Made by a program: the position numbers and the translations under genes
The notes under the pieces: model-generated
Told to the model about the DNA's origin: nothing
The model's input: the letters and a program-made list of their open reading frames with translations, nothing else
The model's database searches: none
Source: Lysinibacillus parviboronicapiens
Lineage (GTDB): Bacteria > Bacillota > Bacilli > Bacillales_A > Planococcaceae
Assembly (NCBI RefSeq): GCF_003049575.1
Contig: NZ_PYWI01000004.1
Coordinates: forward strand, 1 to 64,000
Reading direction: 5' to 3'
Length of the DNA stretch: 64,000 nt
Part shown: positions 11,550 to 57,556 of the stretch, one piece after another
Layout: each line of letters begins with the position of its first letter
How positions within the stretch are numbered: the first letter of the stretch is position 1

Positions 11550-11750
11550 GATAATTTACATGCTTAATCCTAATGTATTTAGTTTGCAGCGTTCCAATGT
11601 GGGGTATTACATAAACTAAAGCAAGTCATAATACATTGTCTTGTACGGATAATTTATGTGGCAAAACAGCTTAGACGTTCATCTAGCATTCGAGTTTATC
11701 AGCGATTGCAAACTATTCTCAATTAATTTGTAAATCTTCAACCAAAGTGA

Positions 11751-11786
11751 TTGACTTTTTAATTGATAACAATTATCATTATCAAT
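11751..11786 (+). promoter_or_regulatory. Promoter overlapped by a Fur box
   Basis: TTGACT (11751-11756) and TATCAT (11774-11779) are 17 bases apart. The 19-base stretch 11765-11783 (gataacaattatcattatc) matches the classic Fur consensus at 16 of 19 positions and covers the spacer and -10. Fur with iron should block this promoter, so it should fire under iron limitation. Confidence 0.8.
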
Positions 11787-11890
11787 AGATTATTTCTTTT
11801 CTCCAAATGCTTAATTCAGAATCCCCCTCTTTTTTGAATAAGCATGTATCAAACGGATATTCTTACATCAGACTAAGAATATCCGTTTTT
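11786..11890 (+). ncRNA. Candidate Fur-controlled sRNA, FsrA-like
   Basis: Transcription from the promoter at 11751-11779 should start near 11786. An 11-pair hairpin with one bulge (11807-11818 with 11835-11845) presents a 16-base loop containing CCCCCTCT. A perfect 15-pair stem (11851-11865 with 11874-11888) followed by Ts then forms an intrinsic terminator, 40 bases before fumC. The result would be an RNA of about 105 nt with an exposed C-rich loop able to pair with Shine-Dalgarno sequences. B. subtilis FsrA, a Fur-repressed iron-sparing sRNA, has the same general design. The alternative is an attenuated fumC leader. Confidence 0.6.
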
Positions 11891-11929
11891 AAATTTATAA
11901 ACTTACATAACTTGAAGGAGCTGTTATTA

Positions 11930-13321
11930 ATGGATTTTCGTATTGAAAGAGATACTATGGGTGAAGTTAAAGTACCGGCAGATAAAATTTGGGGCGCACA
12001 AACACAGCGCAGTAAAGAGAACTTCCAAATCGGTACTGAACACATGCCGATTGAGCTCGTGCAAGCCATGGCTATTTTAAAGAAAAGTGCAGCTATTGCC
12101 AATAACAAGCTTGGTAAGCTTTCAGATATCAAAGCGCATGCGATTGTGCAGGCGGCTGACGAAGTGTTAAACGGTCAATGGGACGATCAATTCCCGCTTG
12201 TCGTGTGGCAAACAGGCAGTGGTACACAATCAAATATGAATGTCAACGAAGTCATTGCGCACCGTGCGAACCAGATTTTACAGGATGCAGGTCAAGCTGA
12301 TCGCATTCATCCAAACGATGATGTTAACAAATCACAAAGCTCAAACGATACGTTCCCAACAGCCTTGCATATTGCCGCTGTGTTGAAAGTAGAAGATTAC
12401 TTACTGCCCCGCCTTCGTTTACTGAAAGCGACATTTGATGACAAAGCTGCAAACTTTAAAGATATTATTAAAATTGGCCGTACCCATCTACAAGATGCGA
12501 CCCCACTGACTCTAGGGCAAGAAATAAGCGGTTGGTCGGCAATGTTAGAAAAATCTGAGCGTATGATTAAACACAATGTTGAGTATATGAAAGAACTCGC
12601 TATTGGTGGTACTGCAGTTGGTACGGGTATTAATGCACACCCTGAATTCGGTGACCGTGTAGCAGCAGAAATTAGTGCGTTAACTGGAAAAAGTTTCACA
12701 TCAGCGGCTAATAAATTCCATGCACTAACAAGCCATGATGAGGCTGTTGTCGCACATGGTGCATTAAAAGCACTTGCTGCAGACTTAATGAAAATTGCCA
12801 ATGACGTTCGTTGGTTAGCCAGCGGTCCTCGTTCTGGTATTGGTGAAATCACAATTCCAGAAAATGAACCCGGCTCATCCATCATGCCAGGTAAAGTGAA
12901 CCCAACACAGAGTGAAGCCATGACAATGGTTGTAACACAAGTTGTTGGGAATGATGCAACCATCGCCTTTGCCGCTTCACAAGGAAACTTTGAGCTAAAT
13001 GTCTTTAAACCAGTCATCATTTATAACTTCTTACAATCCACTCGACTACTAGCTGATACCATGAAATCATTCAATGATCACTGTGCAGTTGGCATCGAGC
13101 CAAATAAAGAGGTTCTTGACCATAACCTGCAAAACTCATTAATGTTGGTTACAGCATTAAATCCATATATCGGTTATGAAAATGCAGCAAAAATTGCGAA
13201 GAAAGCCCATAACGAAGGCACAACATTAAAAGAAGCAGCTATTGCTACAGGCTTACTAACTGAGGAACAATTCGATGAATATGTTGATCCAGTTACAATG
13301 ATTTATCCAAACGCAAAATAA
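11930..13321 (+). CDS. fumC: Class II fumarate hydratase
   Basis: The 463-residue enzyme interconverts fumarate and malate in the citric acid cycle without an iron-sulfur cluster. It has [31 protein letters not shown] (substrate site), [10 protein letters not shown] with the catalytic histidine, and the signature [13 protein letters not shown] near residue 318. I start at MDFRIER because GAAGGAG precedes it; the frame runs on upstream through the sRNA region and is not a real extension. Placing an iron-independent fumarase behind a Fur box is logical. Whether its mRNA comes from readthrough or from a second promoter is open. Confidence 0.95.
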
Positions 13322-50581: not shown

Positions 50582-50610
50582 ATGATAATGATTATCATAA
50601 TTGATTGCAA
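50582..50610 (-). promoter_or_regulatory. Promoter and perfect Fur box of efeOBU
   Basis: TGATAATGATTATCA (50583-50597) is a perfect 7-1-7 Fur box. On the minus strand TTGCAA (50610-50605) and TATCAT (50587-50582) are 17 bases apart, so Fur would cover the spacer and -10. Transcription should begin near 50575, at the edge of the repeat element. Confidence 0.88.
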
Positions 50611-52580: not shown

Positions 52581-52610
52581 AAAAAACTGAACAGCGCGAG
52601 CCGTTCAGTC
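52581..52610 (-). terminator. Intrinsic terminator of the siderophore operon
   Basis: Read leftward, actgaac and gttcagt with an inner ggctcgcgct part pair and are followed by seven Ts. It overlaps the last codons of the permease gene. Confidence 0.8.
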
Positions 52611-53612
52611 ATTTTTGCGTAATAAATATAAAAAATAAGGGGCACCGATGCATGCTACCACAATTCCTGCTGGCACAGTTGCCGTTGAAATCGCCACGCG
52701 TCCGATTGTATCGGCAAGCATTAATAAGCTAGCCCCAATACATAGTGTTAACGGTAAAAAGAATTGATAGCGTGGTCCTACGAGCTGTTTCGCGATGTGG
52801 GGTGCCATTAAACCGATAAAGGCAATTCCACCAGTCACTGATACAGCCGCCGCAGCTAATGCTACAGCCACCACTAATAATTGTAGTCGCTCACGGCCAA
52901 TATTCATGCCTAAGCCGATTGCTGTTTGCTCGGTCATGGCCAGTACATTTAACACATTCGCTTTATAGAAAATGAATGGGATGCCTAGCACGAGCCACGG
53001 CACTAATGCCCAAAAGAACGGCCAATCGGTACCCCATACACTGCCTGCCAACCATTGTGCGATAAACTGCACATCACTGCGCTCCGCAGAGGAGATTAAA
53101 ATAATCATCACACCCGATAACGCAGAAGCCACACCTACCCCGACTAAAATGAACTGTATGGGTTGAACGCCTATATTCCGTTTATACGAGAAAAAGTAAA
53201 TACATAGTGCTGTGAACATTGCACTTAGAAACCCAACGACTGGTAGTACATAGGCAAAGTTAGGTAAATTCCCGTTGACAATTAAGTAGAACAATGTAAT
53301 CCCAACACCAGCACCCGCATTAATACCAATAATACCAGGGTCTGCCAAATCATTACGTGTTACCCCCTGCAATACGGCACCTGCAAGTGCTAGCGCCATC
53401 CCTGCCGCTGCCAAGACAAACATTCTTGGCAATCGCACAGAAAACAAGACGAATGATTCTTTAAAACTACCGTCTCCAAGTAAAATCGGTAGTATGCGAT
53501 CAATGGAAACCGAGGCAGCCCCCAGTGAAATGCCTAATACAAAAATAGCTAGCGTTAATATCAGCCACACAAATAGCCAAATTCGTTGCTTTTTTCGACC
53601 TGCATTAAGCAA
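52605..53612 (-). CDS. FecCD-family iron-siderophore ABC permease
   Basis: The 335-residue protein has about ten membrane spans and the FecCD patterns RLPRMFVLAAAGMALALAGA (residues ~58-77) and GFLSAMF, with GGIAFIGLMAPHIAKQLVG as the ATPase-coupling loop. The TTG start at 53612 overlaps the end of the preceding permease gene and has GGGAGG ahead. It is the second membrane subunit of the importer and the last gene. Confidence 0.92.
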   Translation of the reverse strand: MLNAGRKKQRIWLFVWLILTLAIFVLGISLGAASVSIDRILPILLGDGSFKESFVLFSVRLPRMFVLAAAGMALALAGAVLQGVTRNDLADPGIIGINAGAGVGITLFYLIVNGNLPNFAYVLPVVGFLSAMFTALCIYFFSYKRNIGVQPIQFILVGVGVASALSGVMIILISSAERSDVQFIAQWLAGSVWGTDWPFFWALVPWLVLGIPFIFYKANVLNVLAMTEQTAIGLGMNIGRERLQLLVVAVALAAAAVSVTGGIAFIGLMAPHIAKQLVGPRYQFFLPLTLCIGASLLMLADTIGRVAISTATVPAGIVVACIGAPYFLYLLRKND

Positions 53613-54606
53613 ATTGACGACCTCCCTTACGAACAAGTAAAAGGAAGAACGGCAGTCCGATAATAGAAACGATGGCTACAACAGGCGTTTCGAATGGTGC
53701 ATTAATCATCCGGCCAAGGAAATCTGCCGTTAACATAAACCAACCGCCAACAAGTGCACTCATCGGTAACACCAAACGATAGTCTGTGCCAACAAAGGCA
53801 CGTACAATATGTGGCACCATTAAGCCGACAAACGCCAAATTTCCTACAAGCGCCACGGCAGCACCGGCTAGAACGACAACAACCACCATCAGAACACCTT
53901 TAATGACAGTAGTATTTTGTCCTAAGCCAACTGCTACATCTTCATTTAAGCTTAAAATCGTTAACTGACGGCTATAAGCAAACGCAACAACTAGCCCTAC
54001 TACAATAAACGGTACAATGATGAGTGCTGTCCATGTCGTACCAATAAAACCGCCGCTCGTCCACATGGATACATCTTTAGCGATATTAAATAAAATCCCC
54101 GTGCCATCTGCAACGGCCTGTAATAGCGCAGAAACAGCCGCCCCTGCTAGCACCAGCTTCAACGGCGAAAAACCGCTCTTCGTCGATGTGCCAATCCCAT
54201 ATACAATCATCATCCCTATGCCCGCTCCGATGAAGCATGCAAAAATTAGGATATAGTATGAGATATTTGGCACAAAAGCCATGGTTACAGCAAGTGCAGC
54301 ATTCGCCCCTGCTGTAAGACCAAGAAGCCCTGGGTCTGCTAAAGGATTCCTGGTAACCCCTTGCATAATGGCCCCAGCCACTGCTAGTGCACTGCCGACA
54401 AAAATTGCTGCAATGATACGTGGAAATCGAATTTCCCGTAACACTGCATAATGCTTGCCACCACTTTGTCCAACAATGGCTTGATAGACATCTTGAATGC
54501 TCGTATTTGCTGCACCAACGCACAGTGAAATACTAGCCGTTGCTAGTAATAAAATCAGTGCAAGCAACATCTGAAGCCAAAATGGTAATTGTCGAAACTT
54601 TGTCAT
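53605..54606 (-). CDS. FecCD-family iron-siderophore ABC permease
   Basis: The 333-residue membrane protein has RFPRIIAAIFVGSALAVAGA (residues ~60-79) and the coupling loop GNLAFVGLMVPHIVRAFVG (residues ~255-273). It pairs with the next permease as a heterodimer for ferric siderophore uptake. The ribosome site is weak (GAAGG), 24 bases after the binding protein gene. Confidence 0.92.
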   Translation of the reverse strand: MTKFRQLPFWLQMLLALILLLATASISLCVGAANTSIQDVYQAIVGQSGGKHYAVLREIRFPRIIAAIFVGSALAVAGAIMQGVTRNPLADPGLLGLTAGANAALAVTMAFVPNISYYILIFACFIGAGIGMMIVYGIGTSTKSGFSPLKLVLAGAAVSALLQAVADGTGILFNIAKDVSMWTSGGFIGTTWTALIIVPFIVVGLVVAFAYSRQLTILSLNEDVAVGLGQNTTVIKGVLMVVVVVLAGAAVALVGNLAFVGLMVPHIVRAFVGTDYRLVLPMSALVGGWFMLTADFLGRMINAPFETPVVAIVSIIGLPFFLLLVRKGGRQFA

Positions 54607-54629
54607 TGCCTTCGCTACTCTCTACTGAT

Positions 54630-55556
54630 TTATTGTAAAAACTTCTCTTCAAAGAAATCGAGTTGATAATCTAATGTTATCGGATCATTAAAGTAAAATG
54701 CATTGGCATTGACCTCAAATAAACGACCATTTTTCACTGCTTCTAAATCTTTAAACCATGTAGCTTCTGTAAACGAAGTATCTTGGTCCATAAACATACT
54801 GAAAATAACATAATCACCAGCGTAGTCACCTAATACCTCTTGAGAAATCGCGAAATAACCTGGTTCCAACGCCACTTCTTTCACTTTTTCAGGCATCTTT
54901 AAGCCCATTGCTTGATATAAAATTTCTGTTCCACGACCCCAGTTATCTCCATAAAGATACAATTGTTTATTGAAGTTTTCTGCGACAGTAACGGTTGCGT
55001 CCTCACCGATTTTCTCTTTAATTTTAGTACCTACCTCTGTAGCACGTACTTTAAAATCTTCTACCCATGCTGTTGCTTCTTTTTCTTTATTTACTACCTT
55101 ACCAATTTCAATAAATTGCTGTAAATAATCCACTTTGCCGTAAGTAAATAACACTGTAGGAGCGATTTCAGCTAATTTATCAGCATTTTCAATACCACTT
55201 AAACCAAGAATTAAATCGGGTTCTAGCTCAAGAATTTTTTCAATATCTGTATTTTCAACAACCACTGCATCTTTAATGTCATCTTGGAAGTTTGGGTTTT
55301 TTGTCGCCCATGAATCAACACCAACGACATTAACATCAAGTTTTAATAAATCTCCAACAAATGAAGATAACACAACTACTCGTTTTGGATTAGCTGGTAC
55401 TTCCACAGGACCTGTTTCAGATTCATACGTAATCGTCTCTGCTGAAGAAGCCTCTTTAGAACCCTCACCCGATTTTTCAGCACTTTCTTCTTTGTTGCCG
55501 CATGCTGCTAGCACGAGTACAACCATCATAAACATTGGTAAAAGCCACTTTTTCAT
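54630..55556 (-). CDS. Iron-siderophore ABC substrate-binding lipoprotein
   Basis: The 308-residue protein has a lipoprotein signal (MKKWLLPMFMMVVLVLAACG, Cys ~19), an acidic linker, and the two-lobe periplasmic binding fold of class III. PKRVVVLSSFVGDLLKLDV starts lobe one and LEPDLILGLSGIENADKLAE is typical. I start at MKKWLL because AAAGGGGA precedes it; the frame extends upstream. It captures a ferric siderophore, probably hydroxamate or carboxylate type, for the permeases. Confidence 0.92.
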   Translation of the reverse strand: MKKWLLPMFMMVVLVLAACGNKEESAEKSGEGSKEASSAETITYESETGPVEVPANPKRVVVLSSFVGDLLKLDVNVVGVDSWATKNPNFQDDIKDAVVVENTDIEKILELEPDLILGLSGIENADKLAEIAPTVLFTYGKVDYLQQFIEIGKVVNKEKEATAWVEDFKVRATEVGTKIKEKIGEDATVTVAENFNKQLYLYGDNWGRGTEILYQAMGLKMPEKVKEVALEPGYFAISQEVLGDYAGDYVIFSMFMDQDTSFTEATWFKDLEAVKNGRLFEVNANAFYFNDPITLDYQLDFFEEKFLQ

Positions 55557-55569
55557 GTGTAAATCCCCT

Positions 55570-56358
55570 TTAAATTGTTTGTAATAAGTTATATGTAATG
55601 CACATTGGTTTGTCCGTTCTAGGATCCTTGCCAATGACCGCATCAATATTAAACACTTTCTGTAAAACTTCTGGTACAACCACTTCTTCTGCAGTACCGA
55701 ACTTCACAAGCTCTCCGTTTGACAGCGCCACAATATAATCAGAAAAACGTGCTGCTTGGTTTAAATCATGTAGCACCATGACAATCGTGCGTCCTTCATC
55801 CTCATTTAACTTGCTTAGTAATTCTAATACTTCTAGTTGATGTGCCATATCCAAATAAGTAGTTGGTTCATCTAAAAATATAATATCCGTTTCTTGTGCT
55901 AATGCCATCGCAATCCACACACGCTGACGTTGTCCACCAGATAGTGCATCAACCGTTTGTTGGCGAAATGCATCCGTTTTAGTTACCTGCAAGGCCCACT
56001 CAATCATGTCTTTGTCCTTTTGCGATAAATTGCCAAAGCCTTTTTGATAAGGGAACCGACCGTAAGAGACAAGCTCTTCCACCGTTAACCCATGCGCACT
56101 TTCAGGACTTTGTGGTAAAATGGCCAACTGTTTGGCCAATTCTTTTGTTTTCATCTTTGAAATATCTTGGCCGTCCAAAACGACATGTCCCTGATCATGC
56201 TTCAATATTCTCGTAATAGCCTTTAATAGTGTGGATTTACCACAGCCATTTGAGCCAATAATAGTTGTAATTTTTCCATCTGGAATTTGTAATGATAGAT
56301 CGTGCACAATCGTCTTGTTATCATAACCAACACGAATCGATTCAATTTGTAAACGCAA
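55570..56358 (-). CDS. Iron-siderophore ABC ATPase (YusV/FecE-like)
   Basis: The 262-residue ATPase has Walker A IGSNGCGKSTLLKAI (residues ~35-49), signature DALSGGQRQRVWIAMAL and Walker B IIFLDEPTTYLDMAHQ. It powers the siderophore importer. It starts at TTG (56358) with GAGAGG seven bases ahead. It is the first gene of a four-gene leftward operon (ATPase, binding protein, two permeases) under the Fur box at 56417. Confidence 0.92.
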   Translation of the reverse strand: MRLQIESIRVGYDNKTIVHDLSLQIPDGKITTIIGSNGCGKSTLLKAITRILKHDQGHVVLDGQDISKMKTKELAKQLAILPQSPESAHGLTVEELVSYGRFPYQKGFGNLSQKDKDMIEWALQVTKTDAFRQQTVDALSGGQRQRVWIAMALAQETDIIFLDEPTTYLDMAHQLEVLELLSKLNEDEGRTIVMVLHDLNQAARFSDYIVALSNGELVKFGTAEEVVVPEVLQKVFNIDAVIGKDPRTDKPMCITYNLLQTI

Positions 56359-56409
56359 ATCGTAACCTCTCTTTCTTTTTACTTCTCGACATGCTATGAT
56401 AATCAAAGT

Positions 56410-56468
56410 TTGTTAATGATAATCATTATCACTAAAATTAGTCTAGTTATCAGATAAGGTTTTGTCAA
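56410..56468. promoter_or_regulatory. Divergent promoters around a perfect Fur box
   Basis: TGATAATCATTATCA (56417-56431) is a perfect 7-1-7 Fur box. Rightward, TTGTTA (56410) and TAAAAT (56433) with a 17-base spacer enclose it. Leftward, TTGACA (complement of 56463-56468) and TAGACT (complement of 56440-56445) with a 17-base spacer place the start next to it. Fur should therefore control both the siderophore operon and the reductase gene. Confidence 0.85.
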
Positions 56469-56506
56469 ATACTTTTTTATTATTTTTTAAGGATGTGGCG
56501 ATAAAA

Positions 56507-57556
56507 ATGCAAGATGTATACGATGTAACAATTATCGGCGGTGGGCCTGCAGGTCTATATAGTGCCTTTTATAGTGGTTTAAGGGGATTAAAAACGAAGC
56601 TTATTGAAAGTCAGGATCAACTCGGTGGTAAAGTCTTGCTTTACCCAGAAAAGCTTATTTGGGATATTGGTGGTCATCCGCCAATTTTAGGTGAACAATT
56701 TGTCAAACAATTAATTGCGCAAGCAAAGACTTTTGACCCTACCATTCTAACTGGAACAAAGGTTGACTACATTGAGCGTCAAGAAGATAATTTTGTCATA
56801 CATACAGCTCTAGGTGACAAGCATTACTCGAAAACAATTCTTTTAGCGGTTGGTGGTGGCATTATTAACCCTCAAAAACTTACGCTCGAAGGCGCTGAAA
56901 AATATGAGATGACAAACTTACACTATACGGTACAGTCCTATCAGCGCTTTGTAGACAAGGAAATTATTATTTCTGGTGGTGGTAATGCAGCACTTGACTG
57001 GGCAGTTGAACTTAGCCCTATTGCCAAAAACGTAACCGTTGTATACCGTAAAGAAACACTTTCTGCGCATGAAGCAACTATCAAAGAGGCGCTGGCAGCC
57101 GGTGTCCAAATTGAATGTAATACAACCATTACAAAATTATCCGCCAATACCGATAAAACAGCTATTCAATTAGTCACATGTGAAAATTCAAAAACTAAAC
57201 AAAGTTATACACGTCAAATAGATGAAGTTATTGTCAGTCATGGCTATAATCGTGAGGCATCGTTAACTTTTGAAGAATCTATGACGATACCGAAGAAAGA
57301 TAATTATTATTACGAGGGAAAAGCGACTGGTGAAACTGCACAACCAGGTATTTTCGCAGCAGGCGACATTCTTTCATTCGAAGGGAAAATACATCTCCTA
57401 TTAGGTACTTTCCAAGATGCCGCAAATGCGGTCAACTCGGTGAAAACTTACCTAGAACCAACAGCCTATCGTAATGCGGTCGTATCTTCTCATAATGAGA
57501 TGTTCAAAGAAAAAAATCGTTCAATTATTGAAAAACAACTTGTACATTCAAAATAA
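56507..57556 (+). CDS. Ferredoxin/flavodoxin-NADP reductase-like flavoprotein
   Basis: The 349-residue protein is of the YumC/YcgT/IruO type. It has an FAD loop TIIGGGPAGLYSAFYSGLRG (residues ~8-27), an NADPH loop IIISGGGNAALDWAVEL (residues ~155) and a late FAD contact GIFAAGDI. IruO-like enzymes reduce siderophore-bound iron or support heme oxygenases, and B. subtilis ycgT is in the Fur regulon. The position beside a Fur box favours an iron-release role. I start at MQDVYD; the frame extends 15 codons upstream without a site. Confidence 0.88.
   Translation: MQDVYDVTIIGGGPAGLYSAFYSGLRGLKTKLIESQDQLGGKVLLYPEKLIWDIGGHPPILGEQFVKQLIAQAKTFDPTILTGTKVDYIERQEDNFVIHTALGDKHYSKTILLAVGGGIINPQKLTLEGAEKYEMTNLHYTVQSYQRFVDKEIIISGGGNAALDWAVELSPIAKNVTVVYRKETLSAHEATIKEALAAGVQIECNTTITKLSANTDKTAIQLVTCENSKTKQSYTRQIDEVIVSHGYNREASLTFEESMTIPKKDNYYYEGKATGETAQPGIFAAGDILSFEGKIHLLLGTFQDAANAVNSVKTYLEPTAYRNAVVSSHNEMFKEKNRSIIEKQLVHSK

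Follow-up and report, generated by a model that had tools for sequence, protein, structure and literature searches.

Between positions 11751 and 11893 of the DNA stretch analysed here (64,000 nt, referred to as the window), we confirmed a Fur-box promoter followed by a short 5' tail, a hairpin with a C-rich loop and an intrinsic terminator, located upstream of fumC. With moderate confidence, we favor the interpretation that this element is a Fur-repressed small RNA arising from the fumC leader which silences fumA, and that read-through of the terminator gives rise to fumC. The following features were assigned in this region of the window:

11751-11779, plus strand: sigma-A-type promoter TTGACT-17-TATCAT, with the -35 TTGACT at 11751-11756, a 17-nt spacer and the -10 TATCAT at 11774-11779
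11764-11778, no strand: Fur box TGATAACAATTATCA, conserved, overlapping spacer and -10
11786-11893, plus strand: proposed small RNA or terminated fumC leader of about 105 nt, based on predicted fold and conservation
11796-11807, plus strand: 5'-tail seed CTTTTCTCCAAA, complementary without mismatch to 12 nt at the start of fumA (codons 5-9)
11807-11845, plus strand: hairpin 1, bulged stem carrying the C-rich loop (predicted fold)
11823-11830, plus strand: C-rich loop CCCCCTCT, probability of being unpaired 1.00, C run of at least 4 in 31/31 genus sequences
11851-11893, plus strand: intrinsic terminator, perfect 15-pair stem (11851-11888) and short T run
11915-11920, plus strand: fumC ribosome-binding site AAGGAG, assigned by sequence
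11930-13321, plus strand: fumC, class II (iron-free) fumarase of 463 aa, ATG at 11930, TIGR00979 equivalog

Both the promoter and a Fur box matching at 16 of 19 positions had been proposed in a sequence-only reading of the window, and their coordinates were confirmed. The promoter hexamers alone were not significant, with 14 promoter-like sites between 11000 and 14500 compared to 11.8 +/- 3.7 in shuffled sequences. The combined pattern of -35, Fur box and -10 was present in all 31 genus sequences. The 16 matching positions are those of the 19-mer at 11765-11783 aligned to GATAATGATAATCATTATC, which we take to be the Fur consensus, and the dyad over spacer and -10 scores 13/14 against TGATAATNATTATCA, presumably the corresponding dyad consensus. 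Dyads scoring at least 13/14 are rare, occurring at six sites in 457,675 positions of the source genome, and 20 Markov-shuffled versions of the window contained no such site. By sequence, the element has the Fur box over the promoter that is typical for Fur-controlled iron-sparing sRNAs. The only other sites in the window scoring at least 13/14 (50583 and 56417) precede genes of the iron-uptake type:

50583-50597: perfect Fur dyad (14/14) before genes for an imelysin-type lipoprotein and a Dyp-type peroxidase (minus strand)
52605-56406, minus strand: FecCD-type ABC operon
56411-56431: overlapping Fur dyads (site 56417) between the FecCD-type ABC operon and an oxidoreductase gene
56462-57556, plus strand: pyridine nucleotide-disulphide oxidoreductase

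We assume the imelysin/Dyp-peroxidase pair by 50583 to be EfeO/EfeB-like. An imperfect dyad, TTGCAAACTATTCTCA, which resembles a degenerate Fur-family box, is located upstream of the -35 of the fumC-linked element at 11706-11721 and is kept in most of the 30 aligned Lysinibacillus loci.

With the RNA start placed at approximately 11786 from the position of the -10, the predicted fold had an energy of -29.7 kcal/mol (z -7.6), and none of 200 shuffled sequences was as stable. The predicted product, a short and structured RNA with an intrinsic terminator at its 3' end, has the form seen in the Fur-controlled iron-sparing sRNA class. The hairpin displaying CCCCCTCT in its loop, claimed previously, was found again; however, the claimed loop size of 16 bases did not hold, as the minimum-energy fold closes three extra pairs and leaves a loop of 10 nt. 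Covariation in hairpin 1 was limited to two base pairs in which both partners had changed. The perfect 15-pair terminator before the fumC ribosome-binding site was likewise verified; only four of its pairs are G-C. Terminators were detected by script in 7/7 genus leaders.

We searched 101 genomes, 32 of them from the same genus, and identified the element in 31 of these 32, always before fumC. Named loci (L289-L295) identify this genus as Lysinibacillus, as the sequence-only reading had suggested, and its proposal of a Fur-controlled, C-rich small RNA is supported as a candidate. Identity in 30 genus relatives was 77-99%. The match began at query position 10-12, i.e. within two bases of the -35 (position 12), in 21 of the 30 relatives, and ended at position 149-160, 0-11 nt beyond the end of the terminator stem (position 149), in 21 of the 30; nine of the 30 matches extended nearly to fumC. 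All 30 oriented loci, among them that of the window, have fumC behind the element, at a distance of 170-362 nt from -35 to ATG, and the part from terminator to fumC aligns poorly. The 31st genus genome (G013) has an altered stem and an unchanged layout. A search of G029, the sole genus genome lacking the element, returned no FumC at E <= 1e-190; this genome does carry fumA and the second RNA described below.

The fumC product scored 778.5 bits against TIGR00979 (cut-off 664.75). In the source genome, 41 nt separate the terminator stem from the fumC ATG, and no promoter-like site was detected in this gap at the threshold of the scan. As this leaves little room for a separate fumC promoter, a single Fur promoter may be the source of the terminated RNA and, when the terminator is read through, of the fumC transcript as well. 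Leakage of the terminator is plausible given that it is A-T-rich and has a short T run. It is fairly unlikely, in our estimate, that the element is instead a stand-alone, trans-acting Fur-controlled RNA which precedes fumC by accident, with fumC being transcribed from farther upstream or otherwise. The gap to fumC, which varies from about 30 to more than 200 nt and is not alignable, the existence of an unlinked second RNA of like style and the conserved dyad upstream of the -35 would be in accordance with such an independent gene. However, element and fumC are syntenic in all 31 fumC-bearing genus genomes and are both missing in G029.

The distribution of Fur boxes outside the genus also argues against an accidental neighborhood. 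The fumC upstream region was read in 90 of 91 genomes sampled from the family, with G154 omitted. A Fur box of at least 12/14 within 420 nt before fumC occurred in 32 of these regions, all with class I fumarase, corresponding to 32 of 68 genomes with and 0 of 22 without this enzyme, where relatives are not independent and two of the 68 (G126 and G145) are counted on a shorter ORF alone. In 21 of the 32 Fur-box genomes, the Fur box was followed by a C run of at least 5 (Lysinibacillus 7/7, g11 4/7, g14 6/6, g15 1/1, g19 3/3). Terminators were detected by script in 17 (strict setting) or 21 (loose setting) of the 32 Fur-box leaders, one of the 21 (G059) being the C-loop hairpin itself, and in 12 or 15, respectively, of the 58 leaders without Fur box. 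In a set of 80 named loci, 27 had a Fur box before fumC; those of Solibacillus and Ureibacillus share the layout of Fur box and C-rich RNA before fumC, and some of Brevibacillus, Paenibacillus, Aneurinibacillus and Ectobacillus have the Fur box without a C run. Loss of loop and terminator with retention of fumC and Fur box, named in the sequence-only reading as counter-evidence, did not occur within the genus (C run in 31/31) and was encountered in Caryophanon (g16) and in g7, where the fumC Fur box is kept without a C run. In g7, about 50 nt separate the beginning of the Fur box from that of fumC, an interval that holds no RNA. In g18, fumC is located directly behind a siderophore-binding-type (Peripla_BP_2) gene in the two loci translated (L084 and L088, one of them also scanned), which suggests that fumC joined an iron-uptake operon. 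The g7 and g18 layouts suggest that Fur-type control of fumC predates the RNA; this and the Fur boxes preceding fumC in some Brevibacillus, Paenibacillus and others speak against a stand-alone RNA. In a g11 genome, group II intron pieces (Rfam) occur just downstream of fumC (L090 2908-4054).

The suggestion that FumC can replace an iron-sulfur fumarase is supported by the coexistence of both enzymes, as fumA, encoding the class I [4Fe-4S] fumarase, was found in 32/32 Lysinibacillus genomes. No class I fumarase was found in the B. subtilis control. Both fumA and the second RNA lie outside the 64,000-nt window. The fumA start reads ...UAUGGGGGGCAAU...AUG AAU CUA CAA ACU UUG GAG AAA AGU, and the unpaired RNA tail CUUUUCUCCAAA (11796-11807) is perfectly complementary to 12 nt of it, which run from the final base of codon 5 to within codon 9. 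Among 367 gene starts, which were picked mechanically from about 458 kb of the source genome so that some will be wrong, fumA (TTTGGAGAAAAG) displayed the longest match to the fumC-linked RNA. Ranked by duplex energy, fumA was second of the 367 with the 5' tail and 122nd with the C-loop alone. This rules out the C-loop, emphasized in the sequence-only reading, as a specific fumA seed in the source genome. For the second RNA, fumA ranked second with the mid segment and 84th with the C-loop alone. Whole-molecule RNAduplex placed fumA 36th (fumC-linked RNA) and 19th (second RNA) of 367, a ranking that was uninformative.

The predicted target site is under constraint at silent positions. Of 241 four-codon windows of fumA from 20 Lysinibacillus genomes, a single one, codons 6-9 (LEKS), is codon-invariant throughout. 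Overall, 66 of the 413 degenerate codons with an invariant amino acid in these genes are also invariant in codon, with the caveat that the beginning of a gene may be constrained in other ways. In 4.75 Mb, the 11-nt seed TTGGAGAAAAG was counted 10 times and the reversed control four times. One seed site is opposite the RNA itself, one is in fumA, one is in the aconitase leader and seven are elsewhere, including one within the opening codons of a different ORF and two located 60 and 103 nt before ORFs. The exact 12-mer of the tail is present in 16 of 31 genus RNAs. When RNA tail and fumA start were read from 19 genomes, 11 showed 10-12 perfect pairs and eight showed 5-9, three of the latter reaching 11-12 once G-U pairs were counted. 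The fumA codon site also occurs in g18 (4/4), G046 (g16) and G112 (g7), with no seed of this kind in their fumC leaders, so that the site may be maintained by the second RNA or by another factor. Taken together, fumA is the best predicted target of the fumC-linked RNA.

A search of the source genome with the element revealed a second place matching only its promoter, Fur box and 5' end:

G000:C10:126074-126133, minus strand: second RNA, unlinked (L002 / L037), with Fur promoter, 5' hairpin, ACUUUUCUCCAGAAGUUUG, CCCCCC loop and terminator

This RNA carries the segment ACUUUUCUCC and most of the fumA seed, and its 11-nt fumA match is the second longest among the 367 gene starts for that RNA. Both core segments were exact in 19/19 Lysinibacillus loci read. 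In the predicted fold, the fumA-matching segment is largely paired in a hairpin and the loop is exposed. No Rfam match was obtained for the three loci tested. The second RNA may be a stronger regulator of fumA than the fumC-linked RNA. Its longest match among the 367 gene starts belongs to another gene (L213 7020-8247, minus strand), the Shine-Dalgarno (SD) region of which, AAAATGAGGGGGG, is a perfect 13-nt complement of the C-loop; by the look of its sequence, we take this gene to be M20-peptidase-like.

To compare RNA and target across genera, the genomes' own fumA starts were examined for 30 of the 32 Fur-box genomes. In the other genera, it is the C-loop that matches the fumA SD. In g14 and g15, UUCCCCCCAG stands opposite CUGGGGGGAA of the SD. 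Within g19, G106 and G121 have UCCCCCCAGAA opposite UUCUGGGGGGA and G049 has UUUCCCCCUAGA opposite UCUAGGGGGAAA, and the difference between G049 and G106 looks like a compensatory change. In g11, CCCCCCAAAAAA is opposite UUUUUUGGGGGG in G041, and another segment differs on both sides in G147 (UUUCUCUAAA/UUUAGAGAAA). When own and foreign fumA partners were permuted, 28 of 40,320 permutations reached the observed sum for eight representatives chosen by us, as did 228 of 362,880 in an SD-only test without Lysinibacillus (nine representatives, also chosen by us). This specificity across genera was gone when G-U pairs were allowed (77,510 of 362,880 permutations), and the RNAs of G013 and G021 match foreign fumA better than their own.

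It is also conceivable, though we rate the chance as rather low, that the RNA is real and Fur-controlled but targets other mRNAs, and that its complementarity to fumA arose by chance, as C-rich loops match many SD sequences. AGGGGG occurs 300 times at 4-12 nt before an ATG compared to 121 times for the reversed pattern, loop matches better than that of fumA exist, and the 12-mer is missing from 15 of 31 genus RNAs. Against mere coincidence stand the rarity of the seed, the codon invariance of the fumA site and the retention of the fumA-matching segment of the second RNA in 19/19 genomes read. Among other candidates, the aconitase leader has a 12-nt match in 4/5 genus genomes and one of 11 nt in the fifth. 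By eye, GGAGAAAA was recognized in 37/44 aconitase leaders (L267-L271, L369-L407), with CTTTTC slightly downstream, and it also occurs in genera without the fumC-linked RNA and in genomes without class I fumarase. Start picks were wrong for three of these loci (L378, L383 and L385), and the motif was taken directly from the sequence. As the seed is a family-wide feature of this leader, the match is no evidence of co-evolution. It may be exploited by the RNA, and GGAGAAAA/CTTTTC possibly forms a leader hairpin with its own function. Two further candidates were rejected: leuC, with matches of at most 9 nt in five genomes and no support, and sdhC, the SD of which matches the second RNA over 8 nt in 5/5 genomes, too short to count.

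A purely cis-acting fumC leader attenuator, in which a ligand, protein or RNA regulates termination and trans targets do not exist, appears improbable. The terminator does precede fumC, the tail is predicted to pair weakly with the 5' arm of the terminator before the 3' arm is made, and the Burkholderia fumC is also reported to be preceded by a terminator-like hairpin (PMC7377471). However, this pairing of tail and terminator arm is weak, the conservation of tail and loop exceeds what a terminator requires, and an attenuator leaves the fumA match and the codon constraint unexplained. No curated riboswitch or leader attenuator family matched the window at gathering score or the fumC leaders, and a relaxed threshold yielded nothing plausible. 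The attenuator offered earlier as an alternative is, in one respect, nearly the same thing as the RNA, which is probably fumC's own terminated leader. A true start at ATG 11807, by which the region would encode a longer FumC or a leader peptide, is next to impossible: the ORF 11807-13321 is open in the source genome, but the spacing between element and fumC varies by lengths that are not multiples of 3, and the match to the class II fumarase profile begins at residue 3 of the protein starting at 11930.

In the favored scheme of a leader-derived RNA, Fur would leave the promoter when iron is scarce, and transcription would start. Most transcripts would end at the 15-pair terminator, yielding the RNA of about 105 nt, the 5' tail and C-rich loop of which would pair with mRNA starts of iron-rich enzymes, fumA first, and block translation. 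Some polymerases would read through the terminator and produce fumC mRNA, so that the iron-free fumarase replaces the iron-dependent one, and the second Fur-box C-rich RNA, with most of the fumA seed, would reinforce the shut-off of fumA. We infer from sequence that the element is transcribed, that Fur binds, that read-through and pairing take place in the cell, and that the effect on fumA is repression. More tentatively, one Fur promoter might command a full swap: the leader RNA turns off the iron-sulfur fumarase (with aconitase and succinate dehydrogenase as possible further targets), read-through makes the iron-free enzyme, the strength of the terminator sets the ratio of silencing to replacement, and RNA and fumA start have co-evolved across Lysinibacillus, Solibacillus and Ureibacillus. 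If true, these genera possess a new iron-sparing RNA of compact design, in which the gene encoding an iron-free substitute has a leader that itself acts as the RNA silencing the iron enzyme. Such a system would be suited to studying the co-evolution of RNA-mRNA pairing and the origin of regulatory RNAs from leaders.

None of the titles retrieved from a limited literature collection dealt with a Fur RNA of Lysinibacillus or with an RNA from the fumC leader, and a search of this collection found nothing joining Lysinibacillus and FsrA. FsrA of B. subtilis (Rfam RF02273) is an 84-nt RNA under Fur control that contains C-rich regions (PMC12871923), and its targets include aconitase and SdhCAB (PMC11257911). 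The fumC-linked RNA had been described as FsrA-like, which applies to its mode only: both are C-rich and known (FsrA) or predicted (the Lysinibacillus RNA) to be Fur-controlled, whereas the Lysinibacillus RNA precedes fumC and its main predicted seed is the 5' tail. Membership in the FsrA family was ruled out, as RF02273 gave no match in the source genome and 24 genus relatives under strict filters with a positive B. subtilis control, a relaxed Rfam scan returned only weak unrelated matches and no FsrA or riboswitch, and direct comparison with one FsrA revealed no significant similarity. FsrA homologs are described in Bacilli, Staphylococci and Listeria (PMC12871923), which does not readily fit the Rfam result obtained here. 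IsrR of Staphylococcus is likewise a Fur-regulated iron-sparing RNA with C-rich single-stranded regions and occurs genus-wide (PMC9410917). Compared by description, IsrR has three C-rich regions, three stem-loops plus terminator and two Fur boxes (PMC9410917), whereas the Lysinibacillus RNA has one C-rich loop, one hairpin plus terminator and one strong Fur dyad. A functional parallel is the proteobacterial BrrF (RyhB / BrrF), a low-iron RNA lowering Fe-S fumA while iron-free fumC rises; BrrF is not described as a fumC leader, and fumC lacks a Fur box in the BrrF species (PMC7377471). In Streptomyces, s-SodF, an RNA derived from the mRNA of one isoenzyme, silences the isoenzyme using another metal under a Fur-family regulator (PMC3919588). 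It differs in being a 3'UTR processing product concerned with superoxide dismutases and nickel, in contrast to a terminated 5' leader concerned with fumarases and iron. Leader-derived RNAs with their own role are exemplified by Rli51 before mpl and the rhlI 5'UTR RNA (PMC11394854, PMC6786874), which appear to belong to virulence and quorum-sensing genes and not to an iron isoenzyme pair. Iron-sparing RNAs are known in a few lineages, and several of them share neither sequence nor position (PMC9410917).
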